56,282 bases of DNA from Nitrospirota bacterium (GTDB lineage Bacteria; Nitrospirota; UBA9217), in NCBI GenBank assembly GCA_029858565.1, contig JAOUEV010000015.1, forward strand, positions 1-56,282, read 5' to 3'. A program made the position numbers and the translations under genes. The notes below the pieces were generated by a model that saw nothing but the letters and a program-made list of their open reading frames with translations, did no database searches and was not told the DNA's origin. Below are positions 41,401 to 49,343 of this stretch, one piece after another (within the stretch, counting starts at the first letter, position 1; every line of letters begins with the position of its first letter).

Positions 41401-42396
41401 TCAGCAGATCCGCGGCAGCATTTCTCCTGGAAGCATATCCACGATGCGGCTGCCGCCGACAGCGGTTTCGAGCAATACCATGCCGTTCGGACTTGCCTGC
41501 ACCTCTCCGATCAGATGCGCATTTCTTCCAAAAGGATGTGACTTCATTGCTTCAAGCACGTCACCAGCCTTGTCAGCTTCCACAATCGCAATCAAGATGC
41601 CTTCATTTGCCACATACAGAGGATCGAGCCCCAGAAGGTCGCAGGCGCCTTTCACCGGGGGAGGGATCGGGAGGTCCTGCTCGCGGATCTTGATGCACAT
41701 CCCGGACTCCAGAGCCGCCTCCTTCAGGGTCGTGGCCATGCCCCCGCGGGTCGGATCGCGCATGAAATGGATGTCCGGGGCCGTATTCAGCATTGCCTTG
41801 ACCAAGCCGTTCAACGGCCGGGAGTCGGTCTTTACCGGCGGATCAAAGGAAAGGCCGTTCCGCTCAGCAAGGATCGCAATGCCGTGGTTCCCGATCTCGC
41901 CGCTCACGATCACCCTGTCCCCCGCCTTGATCCTCGATGCCGCGATATCCACCCCGTCCCTGAGCGCGCCGACGCCCGAGGTATTGATGAATATCCCGTC
42001 CGCCTTGCCCTTGTTCACCACCTTGGTATCGCCGGCCACGATGCGCACACCGGCCTGGCGGGCGGCTTCAGCCATTGATGCAACGATCGTCTTGAGGTCC
42101 GCGAAAGGAAAGCCCTCTTCTATAATGAATCCCACGGACAGATAGAGCGGCTCGGCTCCTGCAACTGCAAGGTCGTTCACGGTCCCGCATACCGCAAGGT
42201 CCCCGATATTGCCGCCCGGGAAAAAGAGCGGCGTTACCACATAGGAATCGGTGGTATAGGCAAGCCGTCCCGTTGGAACGCTCACAATGGCCGAGTCGCC
42301 GGAGCCCTTGATCCCAAAGGCAGGGCTGAAGTGCTCGCGTATCAACGCGTGCATCAGCTTGCCGCCGCTGCCGTGGCCTAAGAGAATTTTATCCAT
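41401..42396 (-). CDS. hypE: Hydrogenase maturation protein HypE
   Basis: A 331-residue enzyme that dehydrates the carbamoyl group received from HypF to a cyano ligand for the hydrogenase iron. It starts ILLGHGSGGKLMHALI and has GDSAIVSVPTGRLAYTTDSY, MRDPTRGGMATTLKEA and the C-terminal PRIC ending with the Cys that carries the thiocyanate. It belongs to the PurM/SelD fold, but the GHGSGG start and C-terminal Cys mark it as HypE and not SelD. Last hyp gene of the operon. Confidence 0.96.
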   Translation of the reverse strand: MDKILLGHGSGGKLMHALIREHFSPAFGIKGSGDSAIVSVPTGRLAYTTDSYVVTPLFFPGGNIGDLAVCGTVNDLAVAGAEPLYLSVGFIIEEGFPFADLKTIVASMAEAARQAGVRIVAGDTKVVNKGKADGIFINTSGVGALRDGVDIAASRIKAGDRVIVSGEIGNHGIAILAERNGLSFDPPVKTDSRPLNGLVKAMLNTAPDIHFMRDPTRGGMATTLKEAALESGMCIKIREQDLPIPPPVKGACDLLGLDPLYVANEGILIAIVEADKAGDVLEAMKSHPFGRNAHLIGEVQASPNGMVLLETAVGGSRIVDMLPGEMLPRIC

Positions 42397-42413: not shown

Positions 42414-43469
42414 TTATTGTCCGTACTTGAAGTACGCCGCGCAGCTTCCCTCAGTGCTGACCATGCAGGGCCCCACCGGATTATCCGGAGTGCATCCGGT
42501 CCCAAAAAGAGCGCATTCCGTAGGGATCTTGACACCCCGCAGGATGTCTCCGCAGGAGCAGAGCTCCGGCTCAGGCACGCCGGTGGTCTCAGGATGGAAC
42601 CGCGCGTCCGCGTCCACGGAACTGTATTTCTCTCGCAGCTTCAAGCCCGTACCCGGCAGAACCCCGATCCCCCGCCAGTATGCGTCCTCAGGTTCGAATA
42701 TCTCATTCAGCAAGGCAACAGCTTTGGGATTTCCGTCCTCTTTCACTACCGAGGGGTACCCATTCTCCACCTTGGCTTCTTTTCGCGCGATCTGGCGCAG
42801 GATCATCAGAATGCCGAGAAGGATCTCCGGTGCTTCGAATCCCGTCACCGCGCAGGGTTTCTGATAATCCGAAGCAACGAACTCATAAGGCCGGGTTCCG
42901 ATGATCGTGCTCACATGTCCGGGAAGGATGAATCCGTCGACTCTCACGTCCGCAGAATCGAGCAGCGCCTTGAGAGCGAGCGGAACGGTCTTGTGCGATG
43001 AGAAGACCGAGAAGTTCTTCACCTTTTTCCGAACAGCATCAAATGCCGTGGCCGCGATCAGCGGCGAGGTGGTCTCGAAACCGGTGCCGAAGAATACGAC
43101 TTCCTTCTGCGGATCGCTCTGCGCCAGCTTGAGCGCGTCCATGGGTGAATACATGACGCGCACATCCGCGCCCTCGGACCGCGCTTCAAGCAAGGACTGC
43201 CTGCCTCCCGGCACCCGCATCATGTCCCCGAAGGTTATCAGCGCCGTGTTGGGGCGTTTCGCGATCGATATAGCTGCGTCTACATCAGCGATGGAAGTTA
43301 CGCAAACCGGGCACCCCGGTCCGCTCAGGAGCGAGATGGACGAAGGAAGCAGGCTCCGGATGCCGTGACGGAAGATGGCGACTGTATGCGTCCCGCAGAC
43401 CTCCATGAGCTTGATGGGCCTGTTGATGCTGCCCATGAGTGATTGTATCTCGTCGATCATTTGATTCAT
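42414..43469 (-). CDS. hypD: Hydrogenase maturation protein HypD
   Basis: A 351-residue iron-sulfur protein that forms with HypC the scaffold on which Fe(CN)2CO is built. Seen: KLMEVCGTHTVAIFRHGI with the catalytic Cys, SGPGCPVCVTS, FGTGFETTSP, LPGHVSTIIG, and the cluster ligands CSCGDILRG, ECALFGTGCTP, GPCMVSTEGSCAAY. The ATG at 43469 fits the family start; upstream in frame is a repeat-derived stretch, left out. It follows hypF by 38 bp; that gap holds a short palindrome (TTCCCC-AA-GGGGA, 43486-43497 or so) of the type found in hypF. Confidence 0.96.
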   Translation of the reverse strand: MNQMIDEIQSLMGSINRPIKLMEVCGTHTVAIFRHGIRSLLPSSISLLSGPGCPVCVTSIADVDAAISIAKRPNTALITFGDMMRVPGGRQSLLEARSEGADVRVMYSPMDALKLAQSDPQKEVVFFGTGFETTSPLIAATAFDAVRKKVKNFSVFSSHKTVPLALKALLDSADVRVDGFILPGHVSTIIGTRPYEFVASDYQKPCAVTGFEAPEILLGILMILRQIARKEAKVENGYPSVVKEDGNPKAVALLNEIFEPEDAYWRGIGVLPGTGLKLREKYSSVDADARFHPETTGVPEPELCSCGDILRGVKIPTECALFGTGCTPDNPVGPCMVSTEGSCAAYFKYGQ

Positions 43470-43507
43470 GAATATCTTTCTTTCCTCTCCCCTTGGGGAA
43501 GAGGATG

Positions 43508-45919
43508 TTATTGCCCGTATTTTTTCAATCTTTCCCGCACAAGATATGCCTGTCCGAGTGATATGCATGCATCATTCGGCGGCATCGCCCGGTTCAGGTA
43601 AACATTCATTCCTTCCGCAACCAGCGATTCCTGAGATCTTGCCGCAAGATATCTATTCTGGAATGTCCCGCCGGAAAGAGCAGCATCCTTGATACCTGTC
43701 TTCTGTTGAAGTCTCTTGACCATGGACGTTATCGCGAAAAGGATCGTATTATGAAATCTCGCAGCAATGAGAGAACGATCGATTCCCCCGTTCAGATCAT
43801 TAATGATCATCTTGATCGTTGCTCCGAAGTCCACGATAGTATACGTATTTTCCTCTCTGAAAACAACCGGGTACTGTTCGTCAATCCCCTCTCGCACGAG
43901 CGATTCAAGGGCAATGGCAGCCTCGCCCTCGAAGGTGTTCCTGTCGCAAATACCGATCAACGCTGCTACCGCATCGAACAGCCTGCCTGCGCCGGACGAA
44001 AGCGGGGACACTTCCCTGATCCCGGTTATCTTAAGCACCTGGTCGATCGATTCTTTGCCGTATCGCGCAAAGAACCCGATCTTGTCGAATACAGCGGAAG
44101 AATCCGCTCCAACAGCCGCCGACACAAGGCTTACAGCGGTCCTCCAGGGCTCCCGTATAGCAGCTTCCCCGCCGGGCAGCGGGATATACTTGAAATGGCC
44201 GACCCTCTCAAAATCATCTATTCCCGCGATCAGGAATTCCCCGCCCCAGAGGTTCCCGTCCGTCCCATACCCGGTCCCGTCAAAGGCCACACCGATGACC
44301 GGGCCATTGAGCCCATGCTCAGCCATGACCGAGCCGATGTGCGCGTAATGATGTTGTATGGCGTACGACGTTATTTCATTTCGCACTCCGCACTCCGCTC
44401 TCCGCACTTGTCCCATTGCCCATTGAGTTGACAAATAGCCGGGATGGAGATCATGCACAAGAGCAACCGGTTTGACCCGATAGACCTGCTTAAGGTTATT
44501 CAGCGCCTCCTCATAGAACAGCAGGGTTTCGTAGTTCTCCATATCACCGATATGCTGGCTCGGGATAGCATATGCGCCCTTCGTAAGCGTGAAGGTGTTC
44601 TTCAGGTCCGCTCCGCAGCCCATTACCTCCGGCCCGTCGTCAGACAGACAGATCGGTTCCGGTGCATAGCCCCGGGAACGACGAAGGAACATGATTTCGG
44701 TATTCCGCGTTCCGTGTTCAGTAATTAAAATATTCCGCACTCCGCATTCCGCACTCCGCACTCGCATTACCGTATCGTCCACCCGCATAAAGATATCCCG
44801 GTTATGCAAGAGGAAGGCATCAACAATACCTGACAGCTTTTGAATCGCTTCTTCATTGTCCCGCACGATGGGTTCTTCCGACAGATTGCCGCTGGTCATT
44901 ACCAGCGCCCGGAGCTCCGCCATTTCAGATGTGTTTTGCCGATGGAATAACAGATAATGCATCGGCGTGTAGGGCAGCATGCAACCAATAGAGTTGTTCT
45001 TTGGAGATACCGCTTCGGATAAAGGAGCCGAGGGTCCCTGCTTTTTCCTGAGAAGCACGATCGGCCTTGCATGTGATTCCAGCTGATGCTGTTCCTGATC
45101 GTTCACTTCACAGAAACTCCGAATTTCATCGATTGACGGCGCCATGACCGCGAAAGGCTTGTTGCTCCTACGTTTCCGATCGCGCAACCGTCTTACAGCT
45201 TCGTCATTCGCTGCATCACAGGCGATATGAAATCCGCCAAGCCCTTTTATCGCAACGATGCCGCCGTCGCGTAAATGCTCAACACAAGCCTTGAGCGCGT
45301 CCCCCCTCACCTTAGTCCCCTCCTCCATGGGGAGAGGGCCGGGGTGAGAGGCGAATCGGAACTCAACCTGCGGCCCACACACAAGACATGCATTCGGCTG
45401 TGCGTGAAATCTCCGGTCCAGGGGATCGCGGTATTCCTTTTCGCAGGCCGGACACATGGCAAAGGGCGCCATAGTCGTGTTCGGCCGGTCGTAGGGCACG
45501 CGCAGGGTGATCGAGTACCGAGGGCCGCAGTTCGTGCAATTGATGAACGGATACAGATGCCTGCGGTCCTGGGGGCTCATAAGCTCGCGCAAACAGTCTG
45601 GACAGATCGACACATCAGGAGAAAGGAGAGTAAAGGCCTTTTCGGTATTTATACTGGGAAGGATCTTGAAGAACGCAGAGCCGTCAGCAGGCAGGTATGC
45701 TACATGCACCGTCGAGATACGCGAGAGCGGCGGCGCTTCCTTCGGGAGACGGTCCAGAAACTCAGCTAGTCTCCCCCCTTCCGCCTCTATCAATACACCA
45801 TTCGCCGTATTGGTGACATGTCCCCCGATGCCCAGTGCAGTGGCAAGCGAGTAAACATAGGGCCGGAAACCGACGCCCTGGACAACGCCGGTTATTGTGA
45901 TCTGAGCCCGTTCAGCCAT
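43508..45919 (-). CDS. hypF: Carbamoyltransferase HypF with three repeat-derived insertions
   Basis: About 803 residues; makes the carbamoyl group for the cyano ligands from carbamoyl phosphate. An acylphosphatase domain (ITGVVQGVGFRPYVYSLA), two zinc fingers (CPDCLRELM/CTNCG and CPACEKEY/CLVCG), a YrdC domain (GIVAIKGLGGFHIACDA), and a Kae1-like domain (VHDLHPGYLSTQWA, HHYAHIGSVMAEHG, GVAFDGTGYGTDG) are all present. Extra residues occur at three loops and are coded by repeats: HPGPLPMEEGTKVRG, RSAECGVRN...EHGTRNTE and RRAECGVRNE. All keep the frame, so the protein may still work. The ATG at 45919 overlaps the hypB end. Confidence 0.95.
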   Translation of the reverse strand: MAERAQITITGVVQGVGFRPYVYSLATALGIGGHVTNTANGVLIEAEGGRLAEFLDRLPKEAPPLSRISTVHVAYLPADGSAFFKILPSINTEKAFTLLSPDVSICPDCLRELMSPQDRRHLYPFINCTNCGPRYSITLRVPYDRPNTTMAPFAMCPACEKEYRDPLDRRFHAQPNACLVCGPQVEFRFASHPGPLPMEEGTKVRGDALKACVEHLRDGGIVAIKGLGGFHIACDAANDEAVRRLRDRKRRSNKPFAVMAPSIDEIRSFCEVNDQEQHQLESHARPIVLLRKKQGPSAPLSEAVSPKNNSIGCMLPYTPMHYLLFHRQNTSEMAELRALVMTSGNLSEEPIVRDNEEAIQKLSGIVDAFLLHNRDIFMRVDDTVMRVRSAECGVRNILITEHGTRNTEIMFLRRSRGYAPEPICLSDDGPEVMGCGADLKNTFTLTKGAYAIPSQHIGDMENYETLLFYEEALNNLKQVYRVKPVALVHDLHPGYLSTQWAMGQVRRAECGVRNEITSYAIQHHYAHIGSVMAEHGLNGPVIGVAFDGTGYGTDGNLWGGEFLIAGIDDFERVGHFKYIPLPGGEAAIREPWRTAVSLVSAAVGADSSAVFDKIGFFARYGKESIDQVLKITGIREVSPLSSGAGRLFDAVAALIGICDRNTFEGEAAIALESLVREGIDEQYPVVFREENTYTIVDFGATIKMIINDLNGGIDRSLIAARFHNTILFAITSMVKRLQQKTGIKDAALSGGTFQNRYLAARSQESLVAEGMNVYLNRAMPPNDACISLGQAYLVRERLKKYGQ
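44378..44410. repeat. TGCGGAG repeat insertion in hypF (third insert)
   Basis: Plus-strand words CGCACTCCG, CACTCCG, CTCTCCG in tandem; codes RRAECGVRNE in hypF, at a loop before the HHYAH motif. Confidence 0.6.
44698..44766. repeat. TGCGGAG/GAACACGGAA repeat insertion in hypF (second insert)
   Basis: Two low-complexity blocks: CCGCACTCCGCATTCCGCAC, and before it ATTCCGCGTTCCGTGTTCA. It codes RSAECGVRN, ILITEHGTRNTE in hypF between the conserved RVDDTVMR and FLRRSRGYAPEP. Confidence 0.65.
45301..45354. repeat. CCCTCACC...GGTGAGAGG palindromic repeat insertion in hypF (first insert)
   Basis: CCCCTCACC pairs with GGGTGAGAGG across an inner palindrome CTCC-TCCAT-GGGGAG. Such palindromes are usually intergenic; this one is read in frame as HPGPLPMEEGTKVRG in the linker between the zinc fingers and YrdC domain. 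Confidence 0.6.
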
Positions 45920-46542
45920 TGAGCCCACGCGTCGATGCCCTGGCCGGTGGCGCAGGACACCTCGAATACCTGGAGCTTCGGATTAAGAGCACGGGAATCG
46001 TTCCTGATCTTGTTCATGTCCACGTTCATCATGTGCGGCAGCAGATCGATCTTGTTCAGGACCAGTGCCGATGATTCCTGGAACATGAGTGGGTATTTAA
46101 GGGGTTTGTCATGCCCCTCTGCAATGGAAAGGACCATCATCTTAATGTCCTCGCCCACCTTGAACTCCGCCGGGCAGACAAGGTTCCCCACGTTCTCGAT
46201 GATGACCATATCCAGGTCCTTCAGGGGCAGATCGTCGAGAACCGAATTGATCATGTTCGCGTCCAGGTGGCAGGCGCCGCCCGTATTGATCTGCACCACG
46301 GGAATATCAAGAGCGCCGATGCGTTCTGCGTCGTCGGATCCCACGATGTCCCCTTCGATGACGCCTATTTTGAGATGCGGTTTCAGCTCCTTGATGGTCT
46401 TTTCCAGGAGCGTGGTCTTCCCCGCTCCCGGAGCGCCCATGAGGTTCGCGACGAATACCCCGGCTTCCTTGAATTTCTTTCTGTTTTCCTCTGCGATCCG
46501 GTCATTCGCTTCGAGGATCCGTGAGACCACTTTGACCTTCAT
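45892..46542 (-). CDS. hypB: Hydrogenase nickel incorporation GTPase HypB
   Basis: A 216-residue GTPase that, with HypA, loads nickel into the large subunit. P-loop GAPGAGKTTLLEKT (about 35-48), then IEGDIVGSDDAERI, NTGGACHLDA with the metal-binding Cys/His, IIENVGNLVCPAEF and NKIDLLPH. No His-rich nickel-storage stretch or N-terminal CCxC site is present, so it is a short HypB. The ATG at 46542 is taken in place of a TTG at 46548; it follows the hypCA stop within 2 bp. Confidence 0.96.
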   Translation of the reverse strand: MKVKVVSRILEANDRIAEENRKKFKEAGVFVANLMGAPGAGKTTLLEKTIKELKPHLKIGVIEGDIVGSDDAERIGALDIPVVQINTGGACHLDANMINSVLDDLPLKDLDMVIIENVGNLVCPAEFKVGEDIKMMVLSIAEGHDKPLKYPLMFQESSALVLNKIDLLPHMMNVDMNKIRNDSRALNPKLQVFEVSCATGQGIDAWAQWLNGLRSQ

Positions 46543-46544
46543 AT

Positions 46545-46892
46545 TCAATGCACTTCCATGTCAACGATCTCCATCTCCCTGCCCCGGGTGATCTCGAAGT
46601 CCGCGGAATTGCAATGGGGACAGGAAAAAACATACTGTACATCCGGAACGTCGAATTCCCTGCTGCAGGCCTTGCAGGTCCCGCCGATCGGTACGATCTC
46701 GATGGTCATCTTGGCGTTCTTTGCTTTGGTAGGTTCCTTGAGCGCATCAAAGGCGAACTGGAGCGACTCCGGCATGACGCCGGTAGCTTTTCCCAGCCTT
46801 ACCGTCAGGCCGTCCACCTCGGAGCAGCCTTTTTCCACGCACTGTTCCTCAATGATCTCAAGGATACTGTGGGCGATCGATGATTCGTGCAT
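46545..46892 (-). CDS. hypA: HypA from a possible internal start within the fusion
   Basis: Starting at the internal ATG 46892 gives MHESSIAHSILEII to EIVDMEVH, 115 residues, the normal HypA length. HypA uses its N-terminal Met and His2 to bind nickel, which needs a free amino end. An SD-like AGGTGAG (46902-46896) sits at a usable distance. Two products from one frame are thus possible; this needs proof. Confidence 0.55.
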   Translation of the reverse strand: MHESSIAHSILEIIEEQCVEKGCSEVDGLTVRLGKATGVMPESLQFAFDALKEPTKAKNAKMTIEIVPIGGTCKACSREFDVPDVQYVFSCPHCNSADFEITRGREMEIVDMEVH

Positions 46893-47084
46893 GATCTCAC
46901 CTGTCTGAAATGCCTCGGCCTTGATGGTCTGGATGGCGAAACCGGCATGGACGAGCACAAAATCGCCGATCTTCGGCGTCTCGGGAAGAAGCATGATGCT
47001 GACTTCCTTCCGGGCCCCGTACACATCGATCATGGCCAGGTCATTGTCAATGGATATCACTTTTGAGGGGACCGCAAGGCACAT
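46545..47084 (-). CDS. HypC-HypA fusion (maturation chaperone plus nickel carrier)
   Basis: One open frame of 179 residues codes both proteins. The ATG at 47084 begins MCLAVPSKVISIDN, so Cys2, needed by HypC, becomes N-terminal. HypC runs for about 64 residues (GDFVLVHAGFAIQTIKAEAF) and lacks its usual C-terminal helix and stop. It reads into MHESSIAHSILEII at residue 65 (46892), a complete 115-residue HypA with zinc ligands CKAC and CPHC. AGGTGAG lies 4-5 nt before that internal ATG, so free HypA with its nickel-binding MH start may also be made. It overlaps the protease gene by 28 bp. Confidence 0.88.
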   Translation of the reverse strand: MCLAVPSKVISIDNDLAMIDVYGARKEVSIMLLPETPKIGDFVLVHAGFAIQTIKAEAFQTGEIMHESSIAHSILEIIEEQCVEKGCSEVDGLTVRLGKATGVMPESLQFAFDALKEPTKAKNAKMTIEIVPIGGTCKACSREFDVPDVQYVFSCPHCNSADFEITRGREMEIVDMEVH

Positions 47085-47554
47085 GGTATCTTCCACTCAT
47101 TCAGCTTTTCGGCAATACGCTCGATAAGCGATTCTTTCTTATCCCATATCTCCCTGGTCATGTCAAGGCCGAGCTCCAGGCTCTTGGGCTGGATCCCGAT
47201 GATGCATATTTCCTTCGGGTAGTTGCCTGACAGTTTGACAATGGAAAGTACGTCCATCAGTCCAAGATGATGCATTGATGCCTTCGTGGCCAGCTTGACA
47301 GGAATGGCTTCGTTCTCGAGGGTATCGATATATCCCGGCTCCTGATCGAAGTTCACCGCATCCACCATCAGGACCTTTTCCCTGCCCTCGATGAACGGAA
47401 GCAGGTCAAGACCTGCTGCACCGCCGTCGATGATCTCGACATAATCCGGAACTTCGTAACGCTTATCGAACTCATTTACCGTATGAACTCCCACGCCCTC
47501 GTCGGTCATCAGGATGTTCCCCAAGCCGAGGATCGTGATGGTCGGTTCCTGCAT
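47057..47554 (-). CDS. Hydrogenase maturation endopeptidase (HyaD/HybD family)
   Basis: A 165-residue nickel-dependent protease that cuts the C-terminal tail of the large subunit after metal insertion. Start ITILGLGNILMTDEGVGVH with the metal-binding Glu, IIDGGAAGLDLLPFIEG with Asp, ASMHHLGLMDVL with His, and GIQPKSLELG are typical. The ATG at 47554 follows CGGAGG; the longer frame starts inside the terminator hairpin. It lies after hybC and overlaps the hypCA gene. Confidence 0.93.
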   Translation of the reverse strand: MQEPTITILGLGNILMTDEGVGVHTVNEFDKRYEVPDYVEIIDGGAAGLDLLPFIEGREKVLMVDAVNFDQEPGYIDTLENEAIPVKLATKASMHHLGLMDVLSIVKLSGNYPKEICIIGIQPKSLELGLDMTREIWDKKESLIERIAEKLNEWKIPCALRSPQK

Positions 47555-47642: not shown

Positions 47643-49343
47643 CTAGAGGGCCTTCACCTTCACGATCTCCCCGCCCTTGGCATCGACCATGTGAATGGCG
47701 CAGGCCAGGCAGGGATCGAACGAATGGACCGTCCTGAGGACCTCCAGCGGTTTCTCCGGATCAGCAAGCGGCGTTCCCACAAGTGATGCTTCATAAGGTC
47801 CGGGCGCATCGCTCGCGTTACGCGGAGCTGCGTTCCATGTTGACGGAACAACGCACTGGTAATTCTTGATCTTTCCGCTGTCTATGACCGCCCAGTGCGA
47901 CAGGATGCCGCGCGGCGCTTCATGGAAGCCCACTCCCCGTATCTCACCGCTCGGGAAGTTAGGTGCGTTGAAGGTCTTCACATCGCCCTTTCCGATATTC
48001 GCGATCAGCGCATTCCACTGGTTCGTGCATTCATCGAGCAGCACTGCGCAGCGCACGGCACGGGCACCGATGCGGCCGATGGTGGAGTGCAGCGCAGCAG
48101 GACCGACCTTGGTCTTGGCGACCGCGCTGATCGTGTTCAGCATTTCGGTAACATACTTCTTGGTTCCGGCATGACCTGCAGCATACATGCACAGTACATT
48201 TGCCAGCGGTCCGACCTGCGCGGGCTTGCCGTTGAAAGTAGGCGCCTTGACCCAGGAATACTTCCCGTCGTACTGCATGCCCGTATGGTTCGGGTCCGTG
48301 GATTCTTCCCAGGGATGCTTGTTCCAGTCGCCTTTATACCAGGAATGCTTGATGCTTTCCTTGACGCCATTCTTGAAGTATTCGTCGTTAAAGCTCTTGA
48401 TGGGCTTGAAGGTGCCGAGGTCGCCGTTCTCGATATATCCGCCCGGAAGCGCAAAGGCGGTCCCCTTCGTGTCCATGGGCATATCAGGCGCGGAAAGATA
48501 GTTTGTGACGCCTTTGCCGTAGCCGGTCCATTCGGCATACAGTGCCGCCACAGCTGCGACATCGACCAGCATGGCATTCCTCACAAAGCCCTGCACCTCG
48601 TCGATGAGCGTTTTGATGTAGTACAGCCGCTCCATATTCAGCGCGGACTGGTTGTCCGGATTGATCGGGTTTGCCACGCCGCCAACAGCCAGGTTCTGGA
48701 TGTTCGGCGTCTTGGAACCGAGGATCGAAACGACCATGTTGATCCTTCGCTGGAAATGGAGCGCCTGGAGGTAGTGAGCCGAGGCAAGGAGGTTCACTTC
48801 CGGCGGCAGCTTCATTGCCTTATGGCCCCAGTAGCCGTTCGCGTAAATACCAAGCTGGCCGCTGGATACGAAGGTCTTGAGACGGTCCTGGACCTCTTTC
48901 ATGTGCTTGGCGCTGTTCTGGTCCCAGTTCGAAAGGCTCTCACCAAGCTGGGACGCTTTCTTGGGATCGGCCTTGAGAGCCGAGACAATATCTACCCAGT
49001 CAAGCGCGGCCAGGTGGTAAAAATGCACGATATGGTCATGAACGCCATGGGCGGCCATGATCAGGTTCCTGATGAACTGCGCGTTCAGCGGTATGTCGAG
49101 CTGCAGGGCGTTCTCTACCGACCTCACCGAGGTCAGTGCGTGTACGGACGTTCAAACCCCGCAGATGCGTTGGGTGAAGAGCCAGACCTCCCGGGCATCC
49201 CTGCCTTTCACGATATTCTCGATCCCGCGCCACATCTGGCCAGACGACCACGCCTTGGTCACCTTGCCGCCATCGGTCTCGCACTCGATGCGGAGATGGC
49301 CTTCGATCCTGGTGATAGGATCAATGACGATTCGTTTCGACAT
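47643..49343 (-). CDS. hybC: [NiFe] hydrogenase large subunit with predicted selenocysteine (in-frame UGA, codon 64)
   Basis: Catalytic subunit of a periplasmic Hyb-type group 1 hydrogenase; 566 residues if the TGA at 49154-49152 is read as selenocysteine. The ATG at 49343 follows GGAAGGAG and starts [20 protein letters not shown]. The N-terminal metal motif reads [19 protein letters not shown], so Sec64 replaces the second Cys of CxxC, which in known enzymes bridges Ni and Fe. The C-terminal motif DPCLACAIH (Cys545, Cys548) is normal, with a 15-residue tail for the protease. Both sides of the TGA match the family in one frame, with no other defect. Alternatives are a nonsense mutation or a base error (TGC/TGT to TGA). 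Confidence 0.9.
49117..49137 (-). promoter_or_regulatory. Putative bacterial SECIS hairpin for Sec64 of the large subunit
   Basis: Fourteen nt after the UGA the mRNA folds as ACUGACCUC-GGU-GAGGUCGGU: nine pairs including one U-G, with a three-base loop that starts with G. Bacterial SECIS elements lie within the coding region just after the UGA and have a G in the first loop positions, and the loop here begins 24 nt after the UGA, within the normal range. Confidence 0.7.

Follow-up and report, generated by a model that had tools for sequence, protein, structure and literature searches.

A single-copy HypC-HypA fusion gene in the hyp operon of a Nitrospirota family, with a candidate internal start for free HypA

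The window considered here, which is the whole 56,282-nucleotide stretch of Nitrospirota DNA that was analysed, carries on its minus strand an operon for a [NiFe] hydrogenase and its maturation factors. The order of genes is cytochrome c, hybO (small subunit), hybA (ferredoxin), hybB (membrane subunit), large subunit, maturation protease, hypCA, hypB, hypF, hypD, and hypE (Table 1); the names cytochrome c, hybA, and hybB are taken from the translations, without a profile test. The interval originally predicted for hypCA stands, with the strand corrected to minus; the plus strand is non-coding here. The protease gene, located upstream, shares 28 nt with the start of hypCA, and hypB begins 2 nt past the hypCA stop. 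Positions 44380-44770, within hypF, contain in-frame CGCACTCCGC-type repeat copies (the peptide AECGVRN... occurs twice), giving a HypF of 806 amino acids; similar short repeats sit just after hypCA in genomes G001, G009, and G012.

Table 1. Features of the hydrogenase and hyp operon in the window.
Feature	Position	Strand	Basis or remark
hypCA fusion gene	46545..47084	-	179 codons plus TGA stop (46545-46547); start ATG 47082-47084
HypC part, residues 1-64	46893..47084	-	Pfam PF01455 at 1-60; AF2 secondary structure
HypA part, residues 65-179	46548..46892	-	Pfam PF01155 at 65-178, full profile; TIGR00100; Foldseek
Internal ATG (Met65), candidate start codon for free HypA (115 aa)	46890..46892	-	ATG-CAY-GAA in 11/11
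SD-like AGGTGAG	46896..46902	-	3 nt (ATC) ahead of internal ATG; duplex energies
Maturation protease, HyaD/HybD type	47057..47554	-	TIGR00140 above cut-off; start ATG 47552-47554
hypB, partner GTPase, downstream of hypCA	45892..46542	-	TIGR00073, 269.6 bits; ATG 46540-46542
hypF, same operon	43508..45928	-	TIGR00143
hypD, partner of HypC	42414..43568	-	TIGR00075; single copy in genome
hypE	41401..42396	-	TIGR02124
Group-1 [NiFe] hydrogenase large subunit, maturation substrate	47643..49343	-	In-frame TGA 49152-49154; L1 motif

The hypCA gene is a single open frame in which HypC passes directly into a complete HypA, and the protein reads MCLAVPSKV...HAGFAIQTIKAEAFQTGEI-MHESSIAHS...REMEIVDMEVH-stop. 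An alternative in-frame GTG lies at 47096; a start there would bury Cys2 of HypC. That a 64-residue HypC runs without a stop into full-length HypA, as first proposed, is confirmed by profiles from both Pfam and NCBIfam. The HupF_HypC family is matched at 8.7e-22 (score 77.5 against a cut-off of 28.5) and the HypA family, above its cut-off, at 1.3e-30; the fusion protein also scores 65.4 for TIGR00074 hypC (cut-off 48) and 90.5 for TIGR00100 hypA (equivalog cut-off 88.1). The HypA half carries the MHE nickel motif and the CKAC/CPHC zinc motif. The AF2 model consists of two folded domains and a short linker (mean pLDDT 87), with a pTM of 0.61 that leaves the relative placement of the two domains uncertain; confidence is lowest around the junction (residues 61-70, mean pLDDT 69). 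In Foldseek searches the domains match crystal structures of HypA (5yy0, 3a43, and 5aup) and of HypC.

The HypC half keeps the core of the protein (MCLAVPSK..HAGFAI) and has lost its end. Where HypC is a separate protein in the phylum, it is 74-84 residues long and has a C-terminal helix, for example VEQEAAEDALNLIKTMF; in the fusion this canonical helix after the barrel is absent, PF01455 is matched only to position 59 of 65, and the AF2 model retains one short turn at residues 56-61. The turn is followed by a linker, TGEI in the window and [TS]G[EK][IVA] across the fusions, and then by HypA. The HypC half is therefore classed as a truncated HypC domain and not as canonical HypC, a loss that the original prediction overlooked. 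In the E. coli HypCD complex the C-terminal part of HypC closes over the Fe(CN)2CO pocket and opens with ATP (PMC11565642). The fusion gene encodes no route to free HypC, so the fusion would be costly if a short, helixless HypC works poorly. A programmed frameshift yielding free HypC was considered and rejected: stops in the -1 frame near the junction occur at no conserved place, and the slippery heptamers GGGAAAG and GGGAAAA are found only in G010 and G007 (L011 and L012), where they lie 10 nt ahead of the internal ATG in slippery register with no nearby downstream stop in the shifted frame, and are probably there by chance.

The fusion is a lineage-wide trait. Of 14 genomes sampled from the same Nitrospirota family, 11 carry it with no internal stop; these 11 span six genera, and the ten fusions other than that of the window have 59-83% identity to it. 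Exactly 64 residues precede MHE in all 11; the junction is free of insertions and deletions although the residues flanking it vary, and the MCLA start with Cys2, MHE, and the two CxxC zinc motifs are kept throughout. Among the named carriers are MAGs of Nitrospirota from DeMMO and from Hainich groundwater. Ten of the 11 genomes with the fusion also have HypD. The three family genomes without the fusion show neither HypC nor HypA; two of these (G003 and G004) also have no HypD, and hence no such maturation pathway, while the third (G008) has HypD on a 5.7-kb contig of a fragmented assembly. No full-length in-frame fusion was found in about 285 genomes of other families, out of 296 genomes across the phylum; at that threshold, matches outside the family consist of HypA by itself or, in G083, of two neighbouring genes separated by TAA. 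Recurrence in relatives, which had been put forward as a check on the prediction, was thus borne out. Two explanations that would have undone it fell away: relatives with separate genes and a near-identical junction (their HypCs have real stops), and a stop lost through a base error. Chance and base error are excluded by the divergence of the ten other fusions combined with their constant 64 residues, and deletion of a stop by sequencing or assembly has negligible probability, as independent assemblies from unrelated sites carry the fusion (L032-L035). That the fusion is real is nearly certain.

Elsewhere in the source genome (listed as 100% complete, in 144 contigs) there is no second HypA and no second HypC. 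The fusion, as the sole HypC and sole HypA of its genome, would have to do both jobs, and since a further hydrogenase-type large subunit is encoded on another contig (C62), it probably serves more than one enzyme.

The large subunit in the window has features of its own. A TGA codon takes the place of the second L1 cysteine (RICGV-TGA-TSVH), TGA occurs at the same L1 place in genomes G001, G002, G006, G009, and G012, and the source genome has a tRNA-Sec above cut-off; the shared TGA and the tRNA make selenocysteine in L1 likely. The known [NiFeSe] enzymes carry selenocysteine in L2, and a literature search found no report of it in L1. In other Nitrospirota families, the hydrogenase large subunits at four loci (L046, L047, L048, and L049) read RI-TGA-GV-TGA-TTVH, with TGA for both L1 cysteines and a normal L2 (DPCMAC/DPCMSC), so that two selenocysteines possibly occupy one metal site. 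Coupling of the fusion to TGA-containing hydrogenases was considered and dropped, since it also occurs alongside all-cysteine large subunits (G007 and G011). The L1 TGA is possibly the more interesting finding of the two.

A tree of 47 HypA sequences places the fused halves together in one clade (support 98/93), which fits a single origin; the HypC tree, too short for a decision, is compatible with the same history. Separate, adjacent genes are found in other families: in f17 (G067 and G098) the TAA of hypC overlaps the ATG of hypA (TAATG), with hypB-hypF following in G067, and in f13 (G100) the two genes are 5 nt apart with hypB-hypF next; loci L027 and L081 show the order hypC-hypA-hypB-hypF. 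An adjacent, separate pair in a hyp operon is the plausible ancestral state. Among the nearest HypA relatives (f5, f33, and f19) no HypC lies within 1.5 kb of HypA, so the adjacent-gene precursor is reconstructed from more distant families.

In Helicobacter pylori HypA, nickel binding needs the Met1 amine and His2, and insertion of a leucine between them leaves about 14% of hydrogenase activity, compared with 12% for a hypA null (PMC5557546); the need for a free N-terminus claimed for HypA is thus real in that species. In the full-length fusion the Met65 amine is a peptide nitrogen, free only in a product started at the internal ATG, and would be blocked for nickel unless HypA is also made alone; a second, 115-residue HypA is for this reason probable.

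Several features of the nucleotide sequence point the same way. The SD-like AGGTGAG ahead of the internal ATG was correctly recognised in the original prediction, with a spacing given as 4-5 nt that is actually 3 nt. ATG-CAY-GAA is invariant, its GAA fixed though GAG is slightly commoner; the conserved glycine of the SD tract is GGT or GGA in all 11 fusions, though GGC is the commonest glycine codon (45%), and the preceding threonine or serine codon ends in A in 9 of 11. In the window, SD pairing is -6.8 kcal/mol at Met65 and -3.3 kcal/mol upstream of HypC's own ATG. Mean anti-SD pairing before Met65 is -6.5 kcal/mol, against -4.95 kcal/mol in synonymous redraws that used the combined codon frequencies of the window and the fusions (p = 0.0455, which is borderline, for six genus representatives; 0.0045 for all 11, which are not independent), with no single genome significant alone. 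In 10 of 11 fusions the RNA around the internal ATG has less structure than the average for the gene. On the other side, the SD is weak in G007 and G010 (-4.0), so that the purine tract is present in most fusions but not all; chance SD pairings stronger than that at Met65 occur inside most of the fusion genes; and because methionine is also kept at other internal sites (REME and DME), conservation of Met65 is not decisive. Taken together, the evidence for the built-in start is moderate, and expression of two products, the fusion and free HypA, has somewhat better than even odds.

The principal alternative is that one 179-residue protein is made and HypA binds nickel at a changed site, through His66 and other ligands. 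Loss of the SD in G007 and G010, retention of MHE as peptide, and the constancy of frame and length are all compatible with this, but in H. pylori a shift of the amine by a single residue takes activity close to null (PMC5557546), and the ATG, the GAA codon and, mostly, the SD have been preserved; the single-product reading is judged unlikely, at perhaps one chance in four. Proteolytic release would instead produce free HypC and free HypA in a 1:1 ratio from a single translation, by a cut before Met65. The low model confidence at the junction and the presence of a protease gene within the operon could be read in its favour; that protease, however, belongs to the family that processes large-subunit C-termini, and no conserved cleavage motif extends past [TS]G[EK] (GEI or GEV follows in most fusions, with GKA in g7), which makes release by cleavage improbable. 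A neutral accident, in which a translationally coupled pair lost its stop and the fusion was tolerated, is no more credible: the TAATG-overlapping pairs of the phylum are only a short step from fusion, but the gene has been kept at such divergence in six genera, at constant length, in single copy, and with no reversion.

No report of a HypC-HypA fusion was found in the open-access literature. Among plasmids of other phyla, 682 records matched, and the two at a coverage of at least 80% are from Methylocystis parvus, in which the genes are separate; a strict peptide scan of genome contigs recovered only 4 of the 10 relatives, so other phyla have been searched in part. The separate pairs of f17 (G067, G083, and G098), f13 (G100), and the M. 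parvus plasmid share the hypC-hypA order and tight spacing or TAATG with the fusion, but have stops between the genes, a free HypA N-terminus, and a HypC that keeps its C-terminal helix (74-79 residues in the pairs from Nitrospirota and roughly 94 in Methylocystis). The fusion shares MCLA with Cys2, HAGFAI, and the fold with HypC/HybG/HupF (PF01455, TIGR00074; PDB 2z1c, 3vyr, and 2ot2), which differ in having a full C-terminal helix where the fusion has one turn and then HypA. With HypA (PF01155, TIGR00100; PDB 3a43, 5aup for HypAB, and 5yxy for HyhL-HypA) it shares MHE, two CxxC motifs, profile, and fold; MHE is internal in the fusion, however, and the Met65 amine lies in a peptide bond. A formal parallel is Salmonella SpaO/SpaO-short, in which an internal start yields a free C-terminal domain (PMC13059759). 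As with spaO, hypCA could encode in-frame products of two lengths; unlike SpaO, its parts are two separate maturation factors, and the short product is predicted.

The favoured account, considered moderately probable as a whole, is of a fusion born by deletion that does two jobs and is probably accompanied by a second HypA product. hypC and hypA would have been neighbours in an ancestral hyp operon, and a deletion in the family ancestor would have taken the end of hypC, including most of the C-terminal helix and the stop, joining truncated hypC in frame to hypA and leaving the hypA start region intact. In E. coli, HypC remains on the precursor until nickel insertion, which fits a HypC-HypA tether. 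HypCD assembles Fe(CN)2CO, HypC passes the cofactor to the apo large subunit, and HypA and HypB insert nickel afterwards (PMC11565642). The HypC half, with Cys2 free at its N-terminus, would carry Fe(CN)2CO with HypD, whose gene is present, to the apo large subunit; the tethered HypA half, predicted to bind nickel and to pair with HypB, encoded by the next gene, would then bring the nickel step to the precursor that has just received iron, and a free 115-residue HypA is probably translated from the internal ATG as well. The original idea that the fusion links the iron-ligand step of HypC and HypD to the nickel step of HypA and HypB is supported. A further reading, in which the nested gene supplies both tether and free HypA and the HypA tether replaces the lid helix of HypC, is held more tentatively, at rather less than even odds.

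The handover from iron to nickel in [NiFe]-hydrogenase assembly is an unsettled question, on which a single-copy HypC-HypA fusion gives direct genetic evidence that both factors act close together on the same precursor; as a natural fusion it is also a ready-made construct for probing the handover. It calls into question the need for a free HypA N-terminus (PMC5557546), as well as for the C-terminal helix of HypC and its ATP-gated lid (PMC11565642); if the tether does replace the lid helix, the lid would not be required in every [NiFe] maturation pathway.
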